DNA from: Deltaproteobacteria bacterium HGW-Deltaproteobacteria-19
Lineage (GTDB): Bacteria > Desulfobacterota > Syntrophia > Syntrophales > PHBD01
Assembly: GCA_002841865.1 (NCBI GenBank)
Contig: PHBD01000002.1
Coordinates: 62,001-126,000, forward strand
Reading direction: 5' to 3'
Length of the DNA stretch: 64,000 nucleotides
Both the position numbers and the translations under genes were made by a program. Positions 1,816 to 60,899 of this stretch are shown one piece after another. The notes under the pieces are model-generated. The model had not been told where the DNA came from. It saw only the letters and a list, made by a program, of their open reading frames with translations, and searched no databases. Numbering within the stretch: position 1 is the stretch's first letter; each line of letters begins with the position of its first letter.

Positions 1816-1856
1816 TTGACTTTGATTGCATTATCCATATAGAATCTATGGATAAT
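1816..1856 (+). promoter_or_regulatory. Promoter and palindromic operator of the TetR gene
   Basis: A perfect inverted repeat has arms ATTATCCATA (1830-1839) and TATGGATAAT (1847-1856) separated by 7 bp. It overlaps a plausible sigma-70 promoter: -35 TTGACT at 1816-1821 and -10 TAGAAT at 1840-1845 (18-bp spacer). The arm length and position over the -10, 25 bp before the TetR start, are typical of an autoregulatory TetR operator. Confidence 0.72.
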
Positions 1857-1880: not shown

Positions 1881-2516
1881 ATGAGAACGCCATTGGAAAA
1901 AGCCAAAAGAGATCCTGAATCAACCAAAGCAAAGATCCTGAAAGTGGCCAGAAAGATTTTCGGAGAATACGGTTATCATGGAGGAACGACCCGGATGATC
2001 GCCGAAGAGGTTGGAATCGACCTTTCCACCATTCATTACCACTGGGGTGAAAAGAAAGACCTTTACGAGGCAGTCGTTCTCGACATCAACAATGACCTGG
2101 GACAGATGCTCCGGAACGTGGAAAAGAAGGCCCACGGATGTCCGCTGGACGAGCGCATGAGGATTTCCTTCGACATGATGACGGATTATCTGCTCGAGCA
2201 CCCGGAAATATCGAACCTGATTCTTCTGAACTATTTCTCAAAAACGCGCATCGATTCCAGCCTCGACGTCGCGGTGCCCGAGTTCACCAGCGACATCGCC
2301 AGGTCCATGGGACTCACGAAGGGAAAGAAGGAGGTGTCTCCCAGGACCATGCTGGAAGTCATAATCGTCATGAATGCAGTGCACGGCCTCATATCCGGGG
2401 AAAGCTTTTTTCTGAAAGTGCTGAACATTGACCGGAACGCTTATACGGAACTGGTCAAGGAAACCCTGAATTTCGTCCTGATTCCCGCTTTCACGACACG
2501 GGAAGCCGGGGATTAG
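1881..2516 (+). CDS. TetR/AcrR-family transcriptional regulator (paralogue of the one at 58596-59237)
   Basis: The 211-aa product from ATG 1881 has a TetR helix-turn-helix in the first ~60 residues (AKILKVARKIFGEYGYHGGT, then TIHYHWGEKKDLYEAV) and a variable ligand-binding domain. Upstream in-frame starts would run through the operator, so 1881 with an AGAGG upstream is preferred. TetR proteins usually repress nearby genes and release DNA on binding a ligand, in catabolic clusters often an acyl-CoA. The protein aligns along its length with the minus-strand TetR at 58596-59237, including the C-terminal motif around NAVHGLISGESFF. Divergent from the QueG-like gene and convergent with catabolic operon I. 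The inducing ligand cannot be read from sequence. Confidence 0.9.
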   Translation: MRTPLEKAKRDPESTKAKILKVARKIFGEYGYHGGTTRMIAEEVGIDLSTIHYHWGEKKDLYEAVVLDINNDLGQMLRNVEKKAHGCPLDERMRISFDMMTDYLLEHPEISNLILLNYFSKTRIDSSLDVAVPEFTSDIARSMGLTKGKKEVSPRTMLEVIIVMNAVHGLISGESFFLKVLNIDRNAYTELVKETLNFVLIPAFTTREAGD

Positions 2517-53230: not shown

Positions 53231-54439
53231 CTATTTGCCGAGTTTGCCGATGATGGAGATGGCGCACACATTCTGGTGGGGGAAGCCGCCCAGGTTGTGT
53301 GTCAGGCCCAGGCGGGGATCCTTCAGCTGGCGCTCCCCTGCCTTACCCTGCAGCTGCAGGTACATCTCGTAGATCATCCGGAGCCCCGAGGCACCGATCG
53401 GATGGCCGAAACACTTGAGGCCGCCGTCGATCTGGGCCGGCACCTTGCCGTCCCGGTCGTACATGCCGTCCAGGGCGTCCTTCCAGGCCTGGCCCGGCTC
53501 GGAGATGTGGAGATCTTCGTAGCTGACCAGTTCCGTGATGGAAAAGCAGTCGTGGAGCTCGATCATGCTGAGCTCTTCCTTCGGATTGGTGACGCCGGCC
53601 TCTTTGTATGCGTCGGTGCTGCACTTGCTTGCCGTGACGAAATGGTCACCGGCCCACTCGTTGAAGCCGCCTTCGTAGCCGTTGCTGACGGACAACTGAA
53701 CCGCCTTGACGGTGATGATGTCCTTTTTCCCGAGCTTCTTGGCGATTTCCGGGGTCGTGACGATCGCGCACGCCGATCCGTCGGAAACACCGCAGCAGTC
53801 AAACAGGCCCAGGGGCCAGGCAATGATCGGGGCGCCCAGGACCTGGTCCATCGTAACCGCCTTCCGCAGGTGGGCCTTGGGATTCAGGACACCGTTGGCA
53901 TGGCTCTTCACCGACACGTGGGCAATGGCCCGCTTGATGTCCTCGTTCTTGATCCGGTTCTTGGCCACGTAGGCCGACGCGAGCTGTGCGAACAGGCCCG
54001 GCGCCGTGCAATTTGGAAACCACTGCCAGACCAGGCTCCCCGACGTAGCCCCCCATGCGGGGAGGCCGCCGTACCCCGTGTCCTTCAGCTTCTCGACGCC
54101 CAGCGCCAGGCAGATGTCGTAGGCGCCCGAGGCAACGCCGTACACCGCCCCCCGGAAGGCCTCCGTTCCCGTGGCGCAATAGTTCTCCATCCTGGAAACG
54201 GGGATGTTGGGCAGCCGGAGGGCAACGCTCATGGACGGCGAGCCCTTGCCGACATTGACCTCTTCCATGCAGACCCCGAACCAGGCCGCCTGGATTGCCT
54301 TCTTCTCGATCCCGGCATCGGCGATCGCTTCCTGAAAGGCCTCGACCATCAGGCCCTCCGCTCCCATATCCCATCGCTCTCCGAACCGGCTGCAACCCAT
54401 ACCGATGATCGCGACTTTGTCTCTAATTCCCGTAGCCAT
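53231..54439 (-). CDS. Thiolase (SCP2-thiolase-like), canonical active site
   Basis: 402 aa from ATG 54439 with GGGGAGG upstream. All expected thiolase residues are visible: Cys88 in ENYCATG, His in MIELHDCF, GLKCFGHPIGASG with the GHP His, and a C-terminal THNLGG segment. It should cleave a 3-ketoacyl-CoA with CoA to acetyl- or propionyl-CoA plus a shortened acyl-CoA. It is the only one of the five stand-alone thiolase-fold proteins in the window with this complete set. Between an acyl-CoA dehydrogenase and the four-domain fusion gene in operon III; the fusion includes a DUF35 domain that might partner it. Confidence 0.92.
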   Translation of the reverse strand: MATGIRDKVAIIGMGCSRFGERWDMGAEGLMVEAFQEAIADAGIEKKAIQAAWFGVCMEEVNVGKGSPSMSVALRLPNIPVSRMENYCATGTEAFRGAVYGVASGAYDICLALGVEKLKDTGYGGLPAWGATSGSLVWQWFPNCTAPGLFAQLASAYVAKNRIKNEDIKRAIAHVSVKSHANGVLNPKAHLRKAVTMDQVLGAPIIAWPLGLFDCCGVSDGSACAIVTTPEIAKKLGKKDIITVKAVQLSVSNGYEGGFNEWAGDHFVTASKCSTDAYKEAGVTNPKEELSMIELHDCFSITELVSYEDLHISEPGQAWKDALDGMYDRDGKVPAQIDGGLKCFGHPIGASGLRMIYEMYLQLQGKAGERQLKDPRLGLTHNLGGFPHQNVCAISIIGKLGK

Positions 54440-54458: not shown

Positions 54459-57173
54459 TTAGAATTTGAACAGTTTGCCGATGAGCTGGGATTTCATCAT
54501 GTCGCCGCTCACCTTCAGTTTGCCGGCGGAGAAGGCCTTCATGCCGTCCAGCTTGCCGGTGATCAGATCGACGAAGTCCGCGTCGGCCATGCCGATGGTC
54601 GTGGTGGCACCGTCGACCTTACCCGTCGATACCTTGCAGGCGCCGTCCTTCACGATGACATACCAGTCGCCGCCCGTCGGTCCGGAGATGTTGAACTGGA
54701 AAACCACGTCCTTGCCGGCGGCCGCGGCTGCGTTGAAGGCAGACGGCATCTTGTCGAAGATCCCCTTGACGTCCATTGCGCCACCGCCCTTGGGTGCCTC
54801 GCTGCCCGCCGGTGCCGGCGGCATGAGGAACGTCATGATGGCCGCGTTCAGCTCCGCGTAGTACTTCGCACCGGCCATGCTGTTGATCTTTTCCCAGTTG
54901 TCACGGATGTCCTCCGGCGTCGGCACTTTCCCGCCTTCGCCGAGCGTGGTCCCGGGGCCGGTCATGATGGCCGCGCGGCTGTAGTACCCGGCGCCCACGT
55001 TGAAAACGCTTCCGTTCTCCTTGCAATCCTCGGAGCAGAGATAAATCGTGAGACCGGCGACGTAATCGGGGCTCATCTTCTTGAACATCTCCGGCGGCAT
55101 GACGTCTTCCGTCAGCCGGGACGCTGCAATCGGCGCGACCGTGTTGACGTGGATGTTGTACTTCCCGCCCTCCGCCTTGAGTGTGTTCATGAAGCCGACG
55201 AGCCCGAGCTTCGCCGAGGAGTAGTTGGTCTGGCCGAAGTTGCCGTACAGGCCCGCTGCGGAGGTCGTCATGACGATCCGCCCGTACCCGTTTTCCCGCA
55301 TGGCCTTGAAGGCCGGGCGCGTCACGTTGTAGGCGCCGTTCAGGTGGACTGCAAGAACAGCCGCCCAGTGCTCCGGCTCCATCTTGAGAATGCCCTTGTC
55401 GCGGAGGATGCCCGCGTTGTTGATGAGGATGTCGACCTTGCCGAAAGCATCGAGGGCCGTCTTCACGATCCCCTCGCCGCCCTGTGGCGTGGCCACGTTG
55501 TCGTAATTGGCGACAGCCTCGCCGCCCAATGCCTTGATTTCATTGACTACCAGGTCGGCAGGCCCGGCTGCACCCGCTCCCGATCCGTCCCGGGCGCCGC
55601 CGAAGTCGTTCACCACGACCTTCGCACCGCGGCGTCCCAGTTCCAATGCATAGGCCCGTCCCAAACCGGCGCCGGCGCCCGTCACGATGGCCACCCTGCC
55701 CTGGAAGTCGACCTCGGGAATCCAGTCGGTCTCCGGTACTGGCTTCCAGAAGTACTGGGAGAAACCTCGCATGGTATCGACAATGCGCCTGCGGAAGGAC
55801 AGCTTCACGGGCATTCCGACCTTGAGGTCATTCAGCTCGCAGTCCGTGAAGTCGGCCACGAAACGGCCGCCGCCCTCGAACTGCACCAGGCCGTAGATCG
55901 CCGGGGGATCGACCGAGAAAGCCAGCAGGTCGCCCGTGAAGCTCTTGATCCGGGCCGGAATGCCGGCGAATTCGTAATCTTCCATGGGCCCCACGTGGCC
56001 GCAGGCGGGGTTCACGCAGATATCCGCCGGCGGGAATTGGGGCGTCCCGCAGGCCGTACACTTGCCGCCCACCATGCCGAGGATCATCTTGCGGTTCCGC
56101 CAGAGGGCCGTCATGGCCGTCTGGATCGGTGCCTCCGCCCGGATGCCCGTCTCCGGAGCAAGCAGCTCACGGAACTTGAGGAACTTCATGTAGTTGTCCG
56201 TTGTTTTCTTCTTGGCCAGCGAACCCTTCACGCCCAACCGCTCGGCGAGCTTCGTGATGTTCTCCGTCACCTTGAAGTACATGGCGTCGCATCCCTGGCC
56301 GAAGCCGGCCACGAGAATGCCGTCGCCCGGTTTGGCCGTCTCGAGGGCCGACACGAACATGACGAGGGCGTGGGCCGCGCCCGTTTCCCCGCAGACTTCG
56401 TGCATCGTGTCTACGAGCTTGTCGCCGGAGGCGCCGAGCTTCTTGCCGATGGACCGGTGCTCGGCCTTGAAGATGCACGGGAAGACGAGCTTCTGGACGT
56501 CGTCCATGGTGATCTTCAACTTCTTCATGAGTCCATTGACTGCCTCGGGGATGAACTTGGAGTAGCCTTCCTCACGGAGCCAGCGCTCTTCCCAGGTGTA
56601 GTCGAACTCGGACCAGGAACCGCGGAAATGGTCCGCGAAGTCGTAGGTAACGCTGTAGGAGCCCTTGAATTCGGCCACGACGTCCTCGCTGCCGACCATC
56701 AGGGCGGCCGCGCCGTCGCCGAACCACATTTCGTAGAAGCCGGCCGGCCTGGTGTGGCGCTTGTCCGAAGCGGCGACCAGGATGGACTTGCGGCTGCCCG
56801 CTTTCACGACGTCGAGGGCCGTCAGGAGACCCGTGGTCCCGGCCCGCTGGGAGGACGTGAAGTCCGCCGTGTTGATGTCGCTCCGCAGGTTCAGCGCCGT
56901 CGCCAGGATTCCTGCGTTCTGGCGGTCACTGAAGGGGAGGGTCGTCGAGCAGAGATAACCCGCGTCGATCTTCTTCTTGTCCTTGCCGATCAGGCAGTCC
57001 TGGGCCGCCGCGACCGCCATGGTAAGGCTGTCTTCGTCATAGTTGCACATGGAGCGCTCGCCCTGGGCCACGCTGATGAGCGCCGGAGCGAACCAGCCCA
57101 TGGCCTGGTAGATCGCCATACGGTCCATTCTCAGGCGAGGGATATAGGCTCCAAATGATGTGATCCCGATCAT
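54459..57173 (-). CDS. Four-domain fusion: HMG-CoA synthase-like, DUF35, SDR dehydrogenase, SCP2
   Basis: 904 aa from ATG 57173 with GGAGG seven bases upstream. Residues 1-~335: HMG-CoA synthase/KAS III-like fold (YDEDSLTMAVAAA, CGETGAAHALV). The nucleophile site reads FTSSQRAGTTG, with Gln109 where archaeal HMG-CoA synthases have Cys, and the catalytic His region reads VFPCIFK. Residues ~365-450: DUF35 zinc ribbon (CTACG...CVNPACG) and OB fold. ~490-735: SDR with TGAGAGLGRAYALELG, NNAG and YSSAK catalytic motifs. ~795-904: SCP2 lipid-binding domain ending KSQLIGKLFKF. The SDR-SCP2 half is a paralogue of the next gene product. Probably oxidises a 3-hydroxyacyl-CoA held by SCP2; the N-terminal domain may be a decarboxylase-like or scaffold module. 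Confidence 0.88.
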   Translation of the reverse strand: MIGITSFGAYIPRLRMDRMAIYQAMGWFAPALISVAQGERSMCNYDEDSLTMAVAAAQDCLIGKDKKKIDAGYLCSTTLPFSDRQNAGILATALNLRSDINTADFTSSQRAGTTGLLTALDVVKAGSRKSILVAASDKRHTRPAGFYEMWFGDGAAALMVGSEDVVAEFKGSYSVTYDFADHFRGSWSEFDYTWEERWLREEGYSKFIPEAVNGLMKKLKITMDDVQKLVFPCIFKAEHRSIGKKLGASGDKLVDTMHEVCGETGAAHALVMFVSALETAKPGDGILVAGFGQGCDAMYFKVTENITKLAERLGVKGSLAKKKTTDNYMKFLKFRELLAPETGIRAEAPIQTAMTALWRNRKMILGMVGGKCTACGTPQFPPADICVNPACGHVGPMEDYEFAGIPARIKSFTGDLLAFSVDPPAIYGLVQFEGGGRFVADFTDCELNDLKVGMPVKLSFRRRIVDTMRGFSQYFWKPVPETDWIPEVDFQGRVAIVTGAGAGLGRAYALELGRRGAKVVVNDFGGARDGSGAGAAGPADLVVNEIKALGGEAVANYDNVATPQGGEGIVKTALDAFGKVDILINNAGILRDKGILKMEPEHWAAVLAVHLNGAYNVTRPAFKAMRENGYGRIVMTTSAAGLYGNFGQTNYSSAKLGLVGFMNTLKAEGGKYNIHVNTVAPIAASRLTEDVMPPEMFKKMSPDYVAGLTIYLCSEDCKENGSVFNVGAGYYSRAAIMTGPGTTLGEGGKVPTPEDIRDNWEKINSMAGAKYYAELNAAIMTFLMPPAPAGSEAPKGGGAMDVKGIFDKMPSAFNAAAAAGKDVVFQFNISGPTGGDWYVIVKDGACKVSTGKVDGATTTIGMADADFVDLITGKLDGMKAFSAGKLKVSGDMMKSQLIGKLFKF

Positions 57174-57242: not shown

Positions 57243-58511
57243 TCAGAATTTGAACAGCTTCTCCAGGAGCTGCGACTTCATCAGGTCTCCTTCTATCTTC
57301 AGCTTCCCGGACGTGTAGGCCTTCATGGCGTTCATTTTTCCGTTCATGAGGTCGATGTAATCAGCGGATGCCATCTTCAGCGTGCAGCCGGGGGAAGCGT
57401 GGACACCGGCGGCCACGGTCAGGGCACCGCCCTTGATCTCTGCATACCAGTCGCCGCCGCCGTCGCCGGCGATGCAATACTGGAAAACAACGTCCGTCGT
57501 GGCCGCACCTGCCTGGAATGCACCGGGCATGGCGGCGAAGACATCTTTCACCGCGGCGAATCCGCCGCTGCTCTTCGGGGCTTCCTTCTTCCCCTCCAGG
57601 GCCGCGAGGACATCCCCGAGGACGAGTTCGTTCAGGTCCGCATATTCCCTGGCACCCTTCAGATCGGCGATCTTCGGCCAGTTGACGGACACATCCTCGA
57701 CGGTGGGGATCTTCGTGCCGCCGCCGAGAACGACGCCGGGGGCCGTCATGATGGCGGCGCGATTGTAGAAGCCGGCGCCGCAGTTGTAGATGTGGCCTGT
57801 GTCCGCGCACTCCTCAGAGCAGAGATAAAGGACGATCGGCGCCACGTAGTCCGGCTTCAGTTTGTCGAGCATGTCCGGAGGCAGGACGTCTTCCGTGAGC
57901 CGCGATGCCGCGATCGGGGCAATGGTGTTCACCTTGATGTTGTACTTCCCGCCTTCCAGCTTCAGGGTGTTCATGAAGCCCACGAGGCCCAGTTTCGCCG
58001 AGCTGTAGTTCGTCTGGCCGAAATTGCCGTACAGGCCCGCGGCCGATGTCGTCATGACGATCCGCCCGAATCCGTTTTCCCTCATGGCGCCGAAGGCCGG
58101 GCGCGTCACGTTGTAGGCCCCGGTGAGGTGGACATCGAGAACGATCTGCCAGTTCTCCGGTTCCAGCTTGAGGAGTCCCTTGTCACGGAGGATGCCGGCG
58201 TTGTTGATGAGGATGTCGACTTTCCCGAAGGCGTCGATGGCCGTCTTGACGATGCCCGCACCGCCTTCCGCGGTCGCCACGCTGTCATAGTTGGCTACCG
58301 CCTCTCCTCCCAGCGCCTTGATCTCCTCAACGACCTTGTCCGCCGGGGCGGCCGCGCCGGATCCCGAGCCGTCACGGGCCCCTCCGAAGTCGTTGACGAC
58401 GACCTTCGCTCCACGTTTGCCCAGTTCCAGGGCATACACACGGCCCAGGCCACCGCCCGCACCGGTTACGATGGCCACGCGACCATCAAAACGAATGCTG
58501 CTAGCTCCCAT
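57243..58511 (-). CDS. SDR 3-hydroxyacyl-CoA dehydrogenase fused to SCP2 (MFE-2-like, no hydratase domain)
   Basis: 422 aa; ATG 58511 lies seven bases after GGGAG, whereas an ATG two codons earlier is too close. N-terminal SDR resembling 17beta-HSD type 4: TGAGGGLGRVYALELG (~14-29), NDFGGARDGSG, NNAGILRDKG and YSSAK. A C-terminal SCP2 domain (~310-422) ends KSQLLEKLFKF. Eukaryotic MFE-2 has the order dehydrogenase, hydratase 2, SCP2; here the hydratase is missing and separate MaoC genes (49734, 50196) could supply it. Should oxidise (R)-3-hydroxyacyl-CoA with NAD+. Lies 84 bp downstream of TetR2 and may share its promoter. Confidence 0.92.
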   Translation of the reverse strand: MGASSIRFDGRVAIVTGAGGGLGRVYALELGKRGAKVVVNDFGGARDGSGSGAAAPADKVVEEIKALGGEAVANYDSVATAEGGAGIVKTAIDAFGKVDILINNAGILRDKGLLKLEPENWQIVLDVHLTGAYNVTRPAFGAMRENGFGRIVMTTSAAGLYGNFGQTNYSSAKLGLVGFMNTLKLEGGKYNIKVNTIAPIAASRLTEDVLPPDMLDKLKPDYVAPIVLYLCSEECADTGHIYNCGAGFYNRAAIMTAPGVVLGGGTKIPTVEDVSVNWPKIADLKGAREYADLNELVLGDVLAALEGKKEAPKSSGGFAAVKDVFAAMPGAFQAGAATTDVVFQYCIAGDGGGDWYAEIKGGALTVAAGVHASPGCTLKMASADYIDLMNGKMNAMKAYTSGKLKIEGDLMKSQLLEKLFKF

Positions 58512-58595: not shown

Positions 58596-59237
58596 TCATT
58601 CCCGCGCGTAATCCGATCCCTGCGCAAAGGCCGGGATATGGATGAACGTCAGCGTCTGCTTGACCAGTTGGATGTAGTTCTCCCGGTTCATGTTCACCAT
58701 GGGACGGAACAGGCTCTCCCCGGACACGAAATTGTGGATCGAATTCATCAGGGCCAGGACTTCCAACCTCACATGAGGAGGAACGTTCCTCTTGTCTTTC
58801 GCCAGCCCCATGGATCGGGCAACATCCGCCGTGAACTCGGGGATTTTAAAGTCGAGTCCGTCGCCTTCCCGCGTCATGCCGAAATAGCGGAACAGGATCA
58901 GGTTTGAGCATTCGGGGTGATCAAAGAGGTAATCCGTCATCATCTCGATGGAAATGGACAGACGGTCGTTCCGGGGCATGCCGTGGATGATCTTTTCGAC
59001 TTCGATGAGTTTTTTACCGAGGTCCTTGCAGATATCGAGAACGACGGCCTCGTAGAGATCGCCCTTTTCTCCCCAGTGATAATGAAGCGTAGAGATGTCG
59101 ATGGCGACTTCCCGGGCAATCATGCGGGTCGTCGTGCCATGGAAACCGTATTGCCCGAAGAGCTGGCGAGCCACTGCCAGAATCCTCCCTTTCATCGACG
59201 TGGGATCTTTCCGGGCTTTCTCAAGAATCGTGGCCAT
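58596..59237 (-). CDS. TetR/AcrR-family regulator (paralogue of the one at 1881-2516)
   Basis: 213 aa from ATG 59237. Helix-turn-helix in residues ~15-60 (RILAVARQLFGQYGFHGTT, TLHYHWGEKGDLYEAV), then a ligand domain with MMTDYLFDHPECSNLILF and MNSIHNFVSGESLF, all with direct counterparts in the 1881-2516 regulator. First gene of operon III, so it may autoregulate and repress the downstream beta-oxidation genes. No strong ribosome site; the closest GGGAA lies inside a 13-bp-period repeat array in the leader (59245-59322), suggesting post-transcriptional control. Confidence 0.92.
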   Translation of the reverse strand: MATILEKARKDPTSMKGRILAVARQLFGQYGFHGTTTRMIAREVAIDISTLHYHWGEKGDLYEAVVLDICKDLGKKLIEVEKIIHGMPRNDRLSISIEMMTDYLFDHPECSNLILFRYFGMTREGDGLDFKIPEFTADVARSMGLAKDKRNVPPHVRLEVLALMNSIHNFVSGESLFRPMVNMNRENYIQLVKQTLTFIHIPAFAQGSDYARE

Positions 59238-59244
59238 TGCAGGT

Positions 59245-59322
59245 TCCCATCAACAGTTTCCAGCGATCCGTTCCATTATCCTGTTCCACCAGGCTATTCC
59301 ATATGCCTGTTCCATCAAATGA
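59245..59322 (-). repeat. 13-bp-period TTCCA repeat array in the TetR2 leader (GGA motifs in mRNA)
   Basis: TTCCA begins at 59258, 59271, 59284, 59297 and 59310, exactly 13 bp apart; a degenerate unit (TCCCA) starts in phase at 59245, and the CCA of the TetR2 start codon region falls in phase at 59232. In the minus-strand transcript this gives TGGAA every 13 nt from about the predicted start site to the ribosome-binding region. The remaining 8 bp vary; units at 59271 and 59297 are most alike (TTCCATTATCCTG, TTCCATATGCCTG). Confidence 0.8.
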
Positions 59323-59327
59323 TGGGT

Positions 59328-59372
59328 AAATTATTCTGAAAGGATTTTCTTGTCAAGAAATTTGTACAAGAA
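59328..59372 (-). promoter_or_regulatory. TetR2/operon III promoter with overlapping palindromes
   Basis: Minus-strand TTGACA (59356-59351), 17-bp spacer, TAATTT (59333-59328), with start near 59320. The -35 lies inside a perfect palindrome TTTCTTG-T-CAAGAAA (59346-59360). A second nested inverted repeat pairs TTCTTGT (59347-59353) with ACAAGAA (59366-59372), and TTGTACAA sits at 59362-59369. Positions suit a repressor, possibly TetR2 itself. Confidence 0.6.
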
Positions 59373-59734
59373 TTTTTTCAGCAATCTATCTATTCGTATT
59401 CTTTGTTGTAATCTGGACAGTGGTCTGTAGGTGCCGGCAGGCCTTCCCTCTTGTAGCAAAAGATGGGAGGCCGCAGCGTCGGTGTTCGTTATGAGACTGG
59501 GCCCGCCCGGAGGGATCAGGATTTTCGCCCGGCAGAAAGGGTAACACGTCCATACAGACAAAGGTATGCTCAACGGCAGAAAGGAACAGAGGACCGTGTG
59601 CGGAATGCCTGAGGACCTGTCCGTGTTTCGTTACAACCGGCGACCCGCATTTTTTCCGGCCTGCTGCCCTCGGGGAAGTCCCCTCCGTTTCACGAGGATT
59701 CAGCAATGAGGCACTCATCCTGCGCCTTATGCGA

Positions 59735-59763
59735 TTGACAATCTTCATGGGCTCCCTTATGGT
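59735..59763 (+). promoter_or_regulatory. Sigma-70 promoter of the FlgO-like gene
   Basis: TTGACA (59735-59740), a 17-bp spacer and TATGGT (59758-59763), 36 bp before the ATG at 59799. The -35 is consensus; the -10 matches moderately. Confidence 0.5.
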
Positions 59764-59798: not shown

Positions 59799-60899
59799 AT
59801 GAACAAATGTTTCGAAGGTTGTCGTCGTATCCTTTATTCCTTGATCGCGCTGGTCGTCATTTGCCCGGCACTCCCTGCAGTCTCTTACGAGCGGGAGATC
59901 GCCAACCTCTCATCCATCCTTTCTGCAGAGATCGTGAAGTCCGGAAAGAAGAGCATTGCCGTGGTCGACTTCACCGATCTTCAGGGGCGTGTGAATGAAC
60001 TGGGGAGATTCATCGCGGAAGAGATTTCCGGCAATCTGACGTCGCACTCTCAGGGTTTCGATGTCCTCGACCGCAACCATATGAAGCGTATCATCGAAGA
60101 ACAGAAGCTCTCCCTGTCCGGCTTGATGGATCCCAGCGCGATCAAAAAAATCGGCAAGCTGGCGGGTACCGATGTCATTATCACCGGAACCATCACCCCG
60201 TTCGGGGACAGCATTCGCGTATCCTGCAAGGCCATCGATACGGAAACCGGAAAAGTGACAGGGTCTGCACGCGGGGATATTGCCAAAACGGTAACCATCG
60301 CCGATCTCTTGAAACTGGGCATTTCCGGTGATTCTCAGCCGGCTGCGGTTCCAGACCGGCCGGCGAAAAGGACGGACCGTGCCGTCAGCCCCGTTGTGGA
60401 AAGGAAAAGGATTGCTCCCGGGAAAATAACCTGGGATTTCGAGACAGGCGATCTGCGTGGCTGGCAGAGCACGGGTACTGCCTTCAATACTCAGCCGACA
60501 TATGGCGACAACCCGACAGCCCGTCATCGCGGCCAGCCCTCCAACCACCAGGGTGATTACTGGATCGGCGGCTATGAGAACCGGCATTCTCCCACCGATC
60601 AACCTGGACGGATCCAGGGCGACGGACCCCAGGGAACCCTGACGTCCGATCCGTTCATGATCAACAATTCAAACATCAGTTTTCTGATCGGCGGTGGGTG
60701 TGACATCAATACGGAGCGGATCGAACTCATGGTAAACGGTCAGGTCGTCCAGAAGGCAACGGGGAGATGCACGGAGACGATGGAGCGCATAACATGGGAC
60801 GTCACCGACTATCAGGGCCAAAATGCTCAGATCAGGCTGATTGATTTCTCCAGCGGTGGTTGGGGACACATCAATTTCGATGACGTGAGATTCCGATAA
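59799..60899 (+). CDS. Exported FlgO/CsgG-like protein with C-terminal beta-sandwich-like domain
   Basis: 366 aa from ATG 59799 with AGGAG nine bases upstream. N-terminal signal peptide (basic NKCFEGCRR then a hydrophobic stretch to about residue 28). Residues ~45-175 match the FlgO/CsgG-like fold: SIAVVDFTDLQGRVNELGRF, FDVLDRNHMKRIIEEQKLSL and AGTDVIITGTI. The C-terminal ~155 residues (WDFETGDLRGWQ to GHINFDDVRFR) resemble a carbohydrate-binding-like beta-sandwich domain seen appended to secreted proteins. FlgO-type proteins are outer-membrane-associated. The combination is uncommon as far as I know. Monocistronic, ended by a strong terminator. Confidence 0.75.
   Translation: MNKCFEGCRRILYSLIALVVICPALPAVSYEREIANLSSILSAEIVKSGKKSIAVVDFTDLQGRVNELGRFIAEEISGNLTSHSQGFDVLDRNHMKRIIEEQKLSLSGLMDPSAIKKIGKLAGTDVIITGTITPFGDSIRVSCKAIDTETGKVTGSARGDIAKTVTIADLLKLGISGDSQPAAVPDRPAKRTDRAVSPVVERKRIAPGKITWDFETGDLRGWQSTGTAFNTQPTYGDNPTARHRGQPSNHQGDYWIGGYENRHSPTDQPGRIQGDGPQGTLTSDPFMINNSNISFLIGGGCDINTERIELMVNGQVVQKATGRCTETMERITWDVTDYQGQNAQIRLIDFSSGGWGHINFDDVRFR

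Follow-up and report, generated by a model that had tools for sequence, protein, structure and literature searches.

Gene context and the 13-bp array

The window, which here denotes the whole stretch of 64,000 nucleotides analysed, carries on its minus strand a gene encoding a TetR-family protein, followed by genes for an SDR-SCP2 protein, an HMG-CoA-synthase-like fusion protein and a thiolase (Table 1). The assignment of the regulator rests on its TetR_N domain and on TetR-like fold matches (Z ≤ 14.1). Its predicted fold is TetR-like (pLDDT 82) and matches many TetR-family structures, including the DNA complexes of QacR, FasR and DarR, none of which is prominent. The fusion protein combines HMG-CoA-synthase-like, DUF35/OB, SDR and SCP2 domains in a single four-part protein. 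A CsgG/FlgO-like gene (59799-60899, plus strand) diverges from tetR and is preceded by a promoter-like TTGACA-17-TATGGT sequence (59735-59763, plus strand).

The leader of tetR contains TTCCA (TGGAA on the minus strand, the coding strand of tetR) five times at steps of exactly 13 bp, with two weaker in-phase units, TGGGA and TGGCC, the latter at 59232-59236 and overlapping the start codon. This arrangement, reported in the preliminary description, was confirmed by a position check and by a 5-mer scan, in which the array was the sole run of at least four identical 5-mers at constant spacing (6-40 bp) in the 64 kb. Comparable runs were absent from all 30 windows simulated with a first-order Markov model. 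Tandem Repeats Finder (TRF) assigned the array a period of 13 and 3.9 copies. Only one further locus in the 3.98-Mb genome, C61:19322-19352, has three TGGAA units in phase. As also proposed earlier, the only Shine-Dalgarno-like stretch of the leader is itself a unit of the array, namely unit 6, which occupies the place of the TGGAA conserved at -12 in orthologous leaders.

The array is joined to a palindrome, CCATCATTTGATGG (minus-strand reading), just downstream of a putative promoter. Unit 1 is the right arm of this palindrome, and one step further upstream the 13-bp lattice reaches ACCCA (59323-59327, minus strand), its left arm. Transcription from the putative promoter would start near 59320-59322, within the palindrome; a strict consensus promoter scan did not call TTGACA-17-TAATTT. 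Beside the putative -35 box, a weak 13-bp direct repeat, CAAGAAATTT / CAAGAATTTT, lies at 59350-59380 and is possibly a chance occurrence in AT-rich DNA.

Table 1 Features of the tetR locus (window coordinates)
Feature	Position	Strand	Basis
SCP-x-type thiolase	53231..54439	-	Open reading frame, domain search
HMG-CoA-synthase-like + OB (DUF35) + SDR + SCP2 fusion	54459..57173	-	Domain search
SDR + SCP2 protein, next gene after tetR, probable operon	57243..58511	-	Open reading frame, domain search
TetR-family regulator, 213 aa, probable cognate repressor	58596..59237	-	Pfam TetR_N 2.2e-13; fold
Unit 6, TGGGA, -12 from ATG	59245..59249	-	Sequence and orthologous leaders
Unit 5, TGGAA	59258..59262	-	Sequence; TGGAT in sister species
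Unit 4, TGGAA	59271..59275	-	Sequence; identical in sister species
Unit 3, TGGAA	59284..59288	-	Sequence; identical in sister species
Unit 2, TGGAA, +13 from right arm	59297..59301	-	Position conserved in orthologues
Unit 1, TGGAA, right arm of palindrome	59310..59314	-	Sequence and orthologous leaders
Candidate palindromic operator core, CCATCA-TT-TGATGG	59312..59325		Exact CCATCANNTGATGG unique in genome
Putative -10 box, TAATTT, 17 bp from -35	59328..59333	-	Sequence; weak TATAAT match
Putative -35 box, TTGACA	59351..59356	-	Read from sequence

Conservation in orthologous tetR leaders

Homologues of tetR taken from relatives and GTDB genomes yielded 81 distinct leaders, 50 of which contained the operator at 12/16 matches or better, compared with 2 of 1,620 shuffled sequences. 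The palindrome, identical in the sister species, lies at the regulator's own promoter and is conserved among orthologues, as expected of an autoregulatory TetR operator. In most orthologous leaders, TTGACA is found at a similar distance upstream of it. The motif common to these leaders reads TTCCATCA-NN-TGATgGAA-N8-TGGAA.

The conserved element extends beyond the palindrome. Among the 44 distinct leaders with at least 13/16 matches, 39 were long enough for the position 13 bp after the right arm to be scored, and 37 of these carried at least four of the five TGGAA bases exactly there, with counts of 0-2 at nearly all other offsets. In the 30 leaders that share the most frequent spacing, T-G-G-A-A occupies positions +13 to +17, each base in 29-30 of 30, and the intervening eight bases are variable. 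The T of this unit is near-invariant and is not needed by a Shine-Dalgarno sequence. The preliminary description had named a lack of phased GGA motifs in the leaders of orthologues as evidence against its reading; these leaders show the phase of the array with a smaller number of units.

The distance from the right arm to the ATG is 12 bp in 5 leaders, 25 bp in 34, 51 bp in one and 77 bp in the window, a series of 12 + 13n with n = 0, 1, 3 and 5, respectively; on this basis the leader seems to have been lengthened in complete 13-bp steps. The sister species, at 76 bp through a 1-bp deletion, and eight other leaders fall outside the series. In three leaders with an off-phase ATG (L074, L102 and L134), the +13 unit is still in phase with the palindrome. 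The leader with the ATG at 51 bp (L099) has three more in-phase units past the right arm (TGGAA, TGGCA and TGGAC), apparently an independent expansion.

Comparison with the sister species revealed no core changes in units 1-4 (0/20) against 7/32 changes in the spacers (P = 0.025 for all changes missing the cores), in a single two-genome comparison with the only available sister species, in which unit boundaries were set after the array had been seen and unit 1 belongs to the palindrome. This result favours selection acting on units 1-4. In the sister species, units 5 and 6 have decayed.

Two other explanations of the repeats were rejected. A 21-codon upstream reading frame starting in unit 1 (MEQAYGIAWWNRIMERIAGNC) might have encoded a leader peptide; the sister species lacks its Trp pair and its stop before tetR, as read by eye from the aligned loci, and the period of 13 is not divisible by 3. 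Repeats of a sigma-54 promoter have an unsuitable spacing, as judged by eye.

The site at other promoters

The palindrome followed by a spacer of 4-16 bp and TGGAA was searched in 155 genomes of the order. This gave 51 matches, 34 of them with a spacer of 8 bp and 5 with the next best spacer. A palindrome-only search with inspection yielded 21 promoter-like sites that do not precede an intact tetR, including the C61 locus, which came to light through its TGGAA unit and not through the palindrome search. At 18 of these 21 sites the +13 unit matches at least four of five bases, with a mean of 4.14/5 matches versus a background of 1.38, and a weaker peak is present at +26; some of these sites derive from tetR loci that were duplicated or lost, and counts of related sites are not independent of one another. 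No +13 peak was observed at six control sites taken as coding. Nearly all of the non-tetR promoter sites have TTGACA 28-42 bp upstream of the left arm, and in most of them about 75-360 bp separate the site from the start codon of the metabolic gene.

The genes behind the sampled sites mainly belong to acyl-CoA metabolism, including acyl-CoA dehydrogenase, enoyl-CoA hydratase, thiolase and AMP-binding acyl-CoA synthetases, together with an HMG-CoA-synthase-like protein, nitronate monooxygenase and FAD oxidoreductase. In the genome studied, the second in-phase array at C61 (3322-3352 of L136, minus strand) precedes an acyl-CoA dehydrogenase/enoyl-CoA hydratase pair and contains TGGAACAACGCGA as two identical copies, the footprint of a recent duplication. 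A third tetR paralogue lies about 10 kb away and has the n = 0 form TTCAATCATTAGATGGAA in its leader. At three loci (L184, L192 and L185), the operator lies before metabolic genes and is followed by an apparent short, decayed tetR N-terminal coding sequence, which suggests that promoters were captured when tetR was duplicated or lost. As several sites are followed by such apparent decayed tetR 5' ends, the non-tetR sites are not all independent inventions.

These data bear on the reading of the array as RNA. The preliminary description took the repeated GGA motifs as a CsrA/RsmA target in the mRNA leader, and the leader does resemble such targets in having several GGA motifs, one of them near the ribosome-binding site. 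In contrast to CsrA/RsmA targets, however, the units are conserved at the DNA level, at promoters far from start codons and in 13-bp register. A PF02599 search found no CsrA gene in this genome, a draft rated 100% complete in which an overlooked CsrA gene is unlikely, nor in that of the sister species; of 12 other site-carrying genomes examined, 10 also gave no match, and matches were obtained in the remaining two (G009 and G059) and in control genomes. Folding of the leader RNA, proposed earlier as a check, gave a minimum free energy at the mean of shuffled sequences (z = -0.01), indicating no special structure, and consistent placing of the units in hairpin loops was not found in the predicted fold. 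The CsrA reading is therefore strongly disfavoured, its probability being negligible.

Alternatively, the GGA units might serve the RNA as multiple weak ribosome-binding or standby sites, with the -12 unit as the Shine-Dalgarno sequence. The -12 unit is indeed the only Shine-Dalgarno-like sequence, at a suitable distance from the ATG in most leaders. Against this, units are also found in promoters at a distance from start codons, the leader fold is not unusual, and where the phases of the ATG and the palindrome conflict the units keep that of the palindrome, making such an element quite improbable. A simple multiplication of Shine-Dalgarno sequences was rejected on the same grounds, in that the +13 unit tracks the palindrome rather than the start codon.

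A probable phased operator and its possible mode of action

The element is best read as a DNA operator that combines an inverted repeat with phased direct-repeat half-sites, which in this genus would have increased from one additional unit to five. A phased protein-binding array, offered in the preliminary description as the alternative to CsrA, is thus supported by the phase shared with the palindrome, by conservation and by recurrence at promoters. We consider it probable that the array serves as an enlarged operator, read by the TetR-family regulator whose gene lies just downstream or by a close paralogue. The cognate protein is not certain, because the genome encodes three paralogous TetRs; the protein encoded at 58596-59237 is predicted to bind the array. 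The second paralogue in the window (1831-1855 and 1881-2495, plus strand) is 60% identical, and its leader has a different palindrome, TTATCCATATAGAATCTATGGATAA, without a 13-bp array; the tetR paralogues seem to have diverged in operator.

In the proposed mechanism, the basic site would combine the palindrome, located at the transcription start, with at least one direct TGGAA half-site exactly 13 bp on, a step equal to the centre-to-centre step between the palindrome's own arms. Tandem multiplication of the 13-bp unit in this genus would then have filled the leader. A repressor dimer would bind the palindrome first, as a nucleation event, and further dimers may dock on the phased half-sites, across the transcription start. 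The extra units would thereby add repressor occupancy, with tighter and more cooperative auto-repression of tetR and of the acyl-CoA-metabolism genes behind it as the predicted outcome. An influence of the array on the whole tetR-headed gene cluster is plausible. The adjoining genes (SDR-SCP2, HMG-CoA-synthase-like fusion and thiolase) and the candidate regulon point to an acyl-CoA-type ligand that would relieve repression; both this ligand and the operon are predictions.

A symmetric TetR dimer does not usually bind direct repeats, and half-sites in direct orientation would be easier to reconcile with a different, iteron-like protein that binds the repeats and acts together with TetR at the palindrome. 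The unit, however, is the palindrome arm itself (TGGAA) at the same 13-bp step, which is most simply explained if one protein reads both, and a second protein is very improbable. Units 2-6 have no good left arm. The idea that the direct repeats form a second, overlapping palindrome was rejected: TCA follows the right arm in 12 of 39 leaders, but a consistent left arm was not seen.

The main rival to a repressor-binding role of the extra units is neutral tandem duplication, in which the palindrome and one half-site make up the working operator and the other four units reflect drift in copy number through replication slippage and have little function. Consistent with this, orthologues get by with n = 0 or 1, the sister species has degenerate versions of units 5-6, and the C61 acyl-CoA dehydrogenase site carries its two identical copies. 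It is opposed by the unchanged cores of units 2-4 amid changed spacers (the counts above include unit 1) and by the phase maintained across expansions. On balance, we regard neutral duplication as somewhat unlikely. A more specific form of the operator reading, in which the TetR of Syntrophales and relatives would form a head-to-tail chain on 13-bp half-sites, with the unit number setting repression and tunable by tandem duplication, is put forward tentatively and is itself rather unlikely.

The operator resembles autoregulated TetR-family operators in having a palindrome at the repressor's own promoter, a TetR_N-domain regulator and a probable operon behind it. It differs in the direct-repeat half-site at a fixed 13-bp step, and we therefore class it as a variant of this type, since that half-site is conserved and can be multiplied. 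Two dimers of QacR bind one operator, and SlmA forms a higher-order structure on DNA. The sites of both are palindromes and are not known to have direct repeats phased behind an inverted repeat, the order seen in the present array. DarR binds as a dimer of dimers to a 20-bp operator of overlapping palindromes with three good half-sites out of four (PMC10636190, within which the multi-dimer occupancy of QacR and SlmA is cited), providing a precedent for multiple dimers at one TetR-type site. The present site is likewise a palindromic TetR-type site with additional half-sites, where two-dimer occupancy is a model by analogy; the difference from DarR is that up to five further half-sites occur, all as direct repeats spaced by 13 bp.

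Control of genes for acyl-CoA degradation by TetR-family proteins, predicted here, is known from the fatty-acid and branched-chain regulators PsrA, FadP and LiuQ of Proteobacteria (PMC5343134). In that survey, FadP and LiuQ are unique to betaproteobacteria, and Deltaproteobacteria have orthologues of only five of the studied regulators (PMC5343134). The regulator described here scores 35.9 bits against the NCBIfam PsrA model, with a cut-off of 300 bits, and matches none of the known fatty-acid TetR regulators of the survey. We found no earlier description of this operator in the open-access literature, nor any candidate operator and candidate regulon, such as those presented here, governing acyl-CoA metabolism in syntrophic bacteria. 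The site reads as a TetR-type operator in which a third half-site, a direct repeat at a constant step, is conserved and can be multiplied. If the extra units add repressor, tandem duplication would offer promoters a simple route to tune repression.
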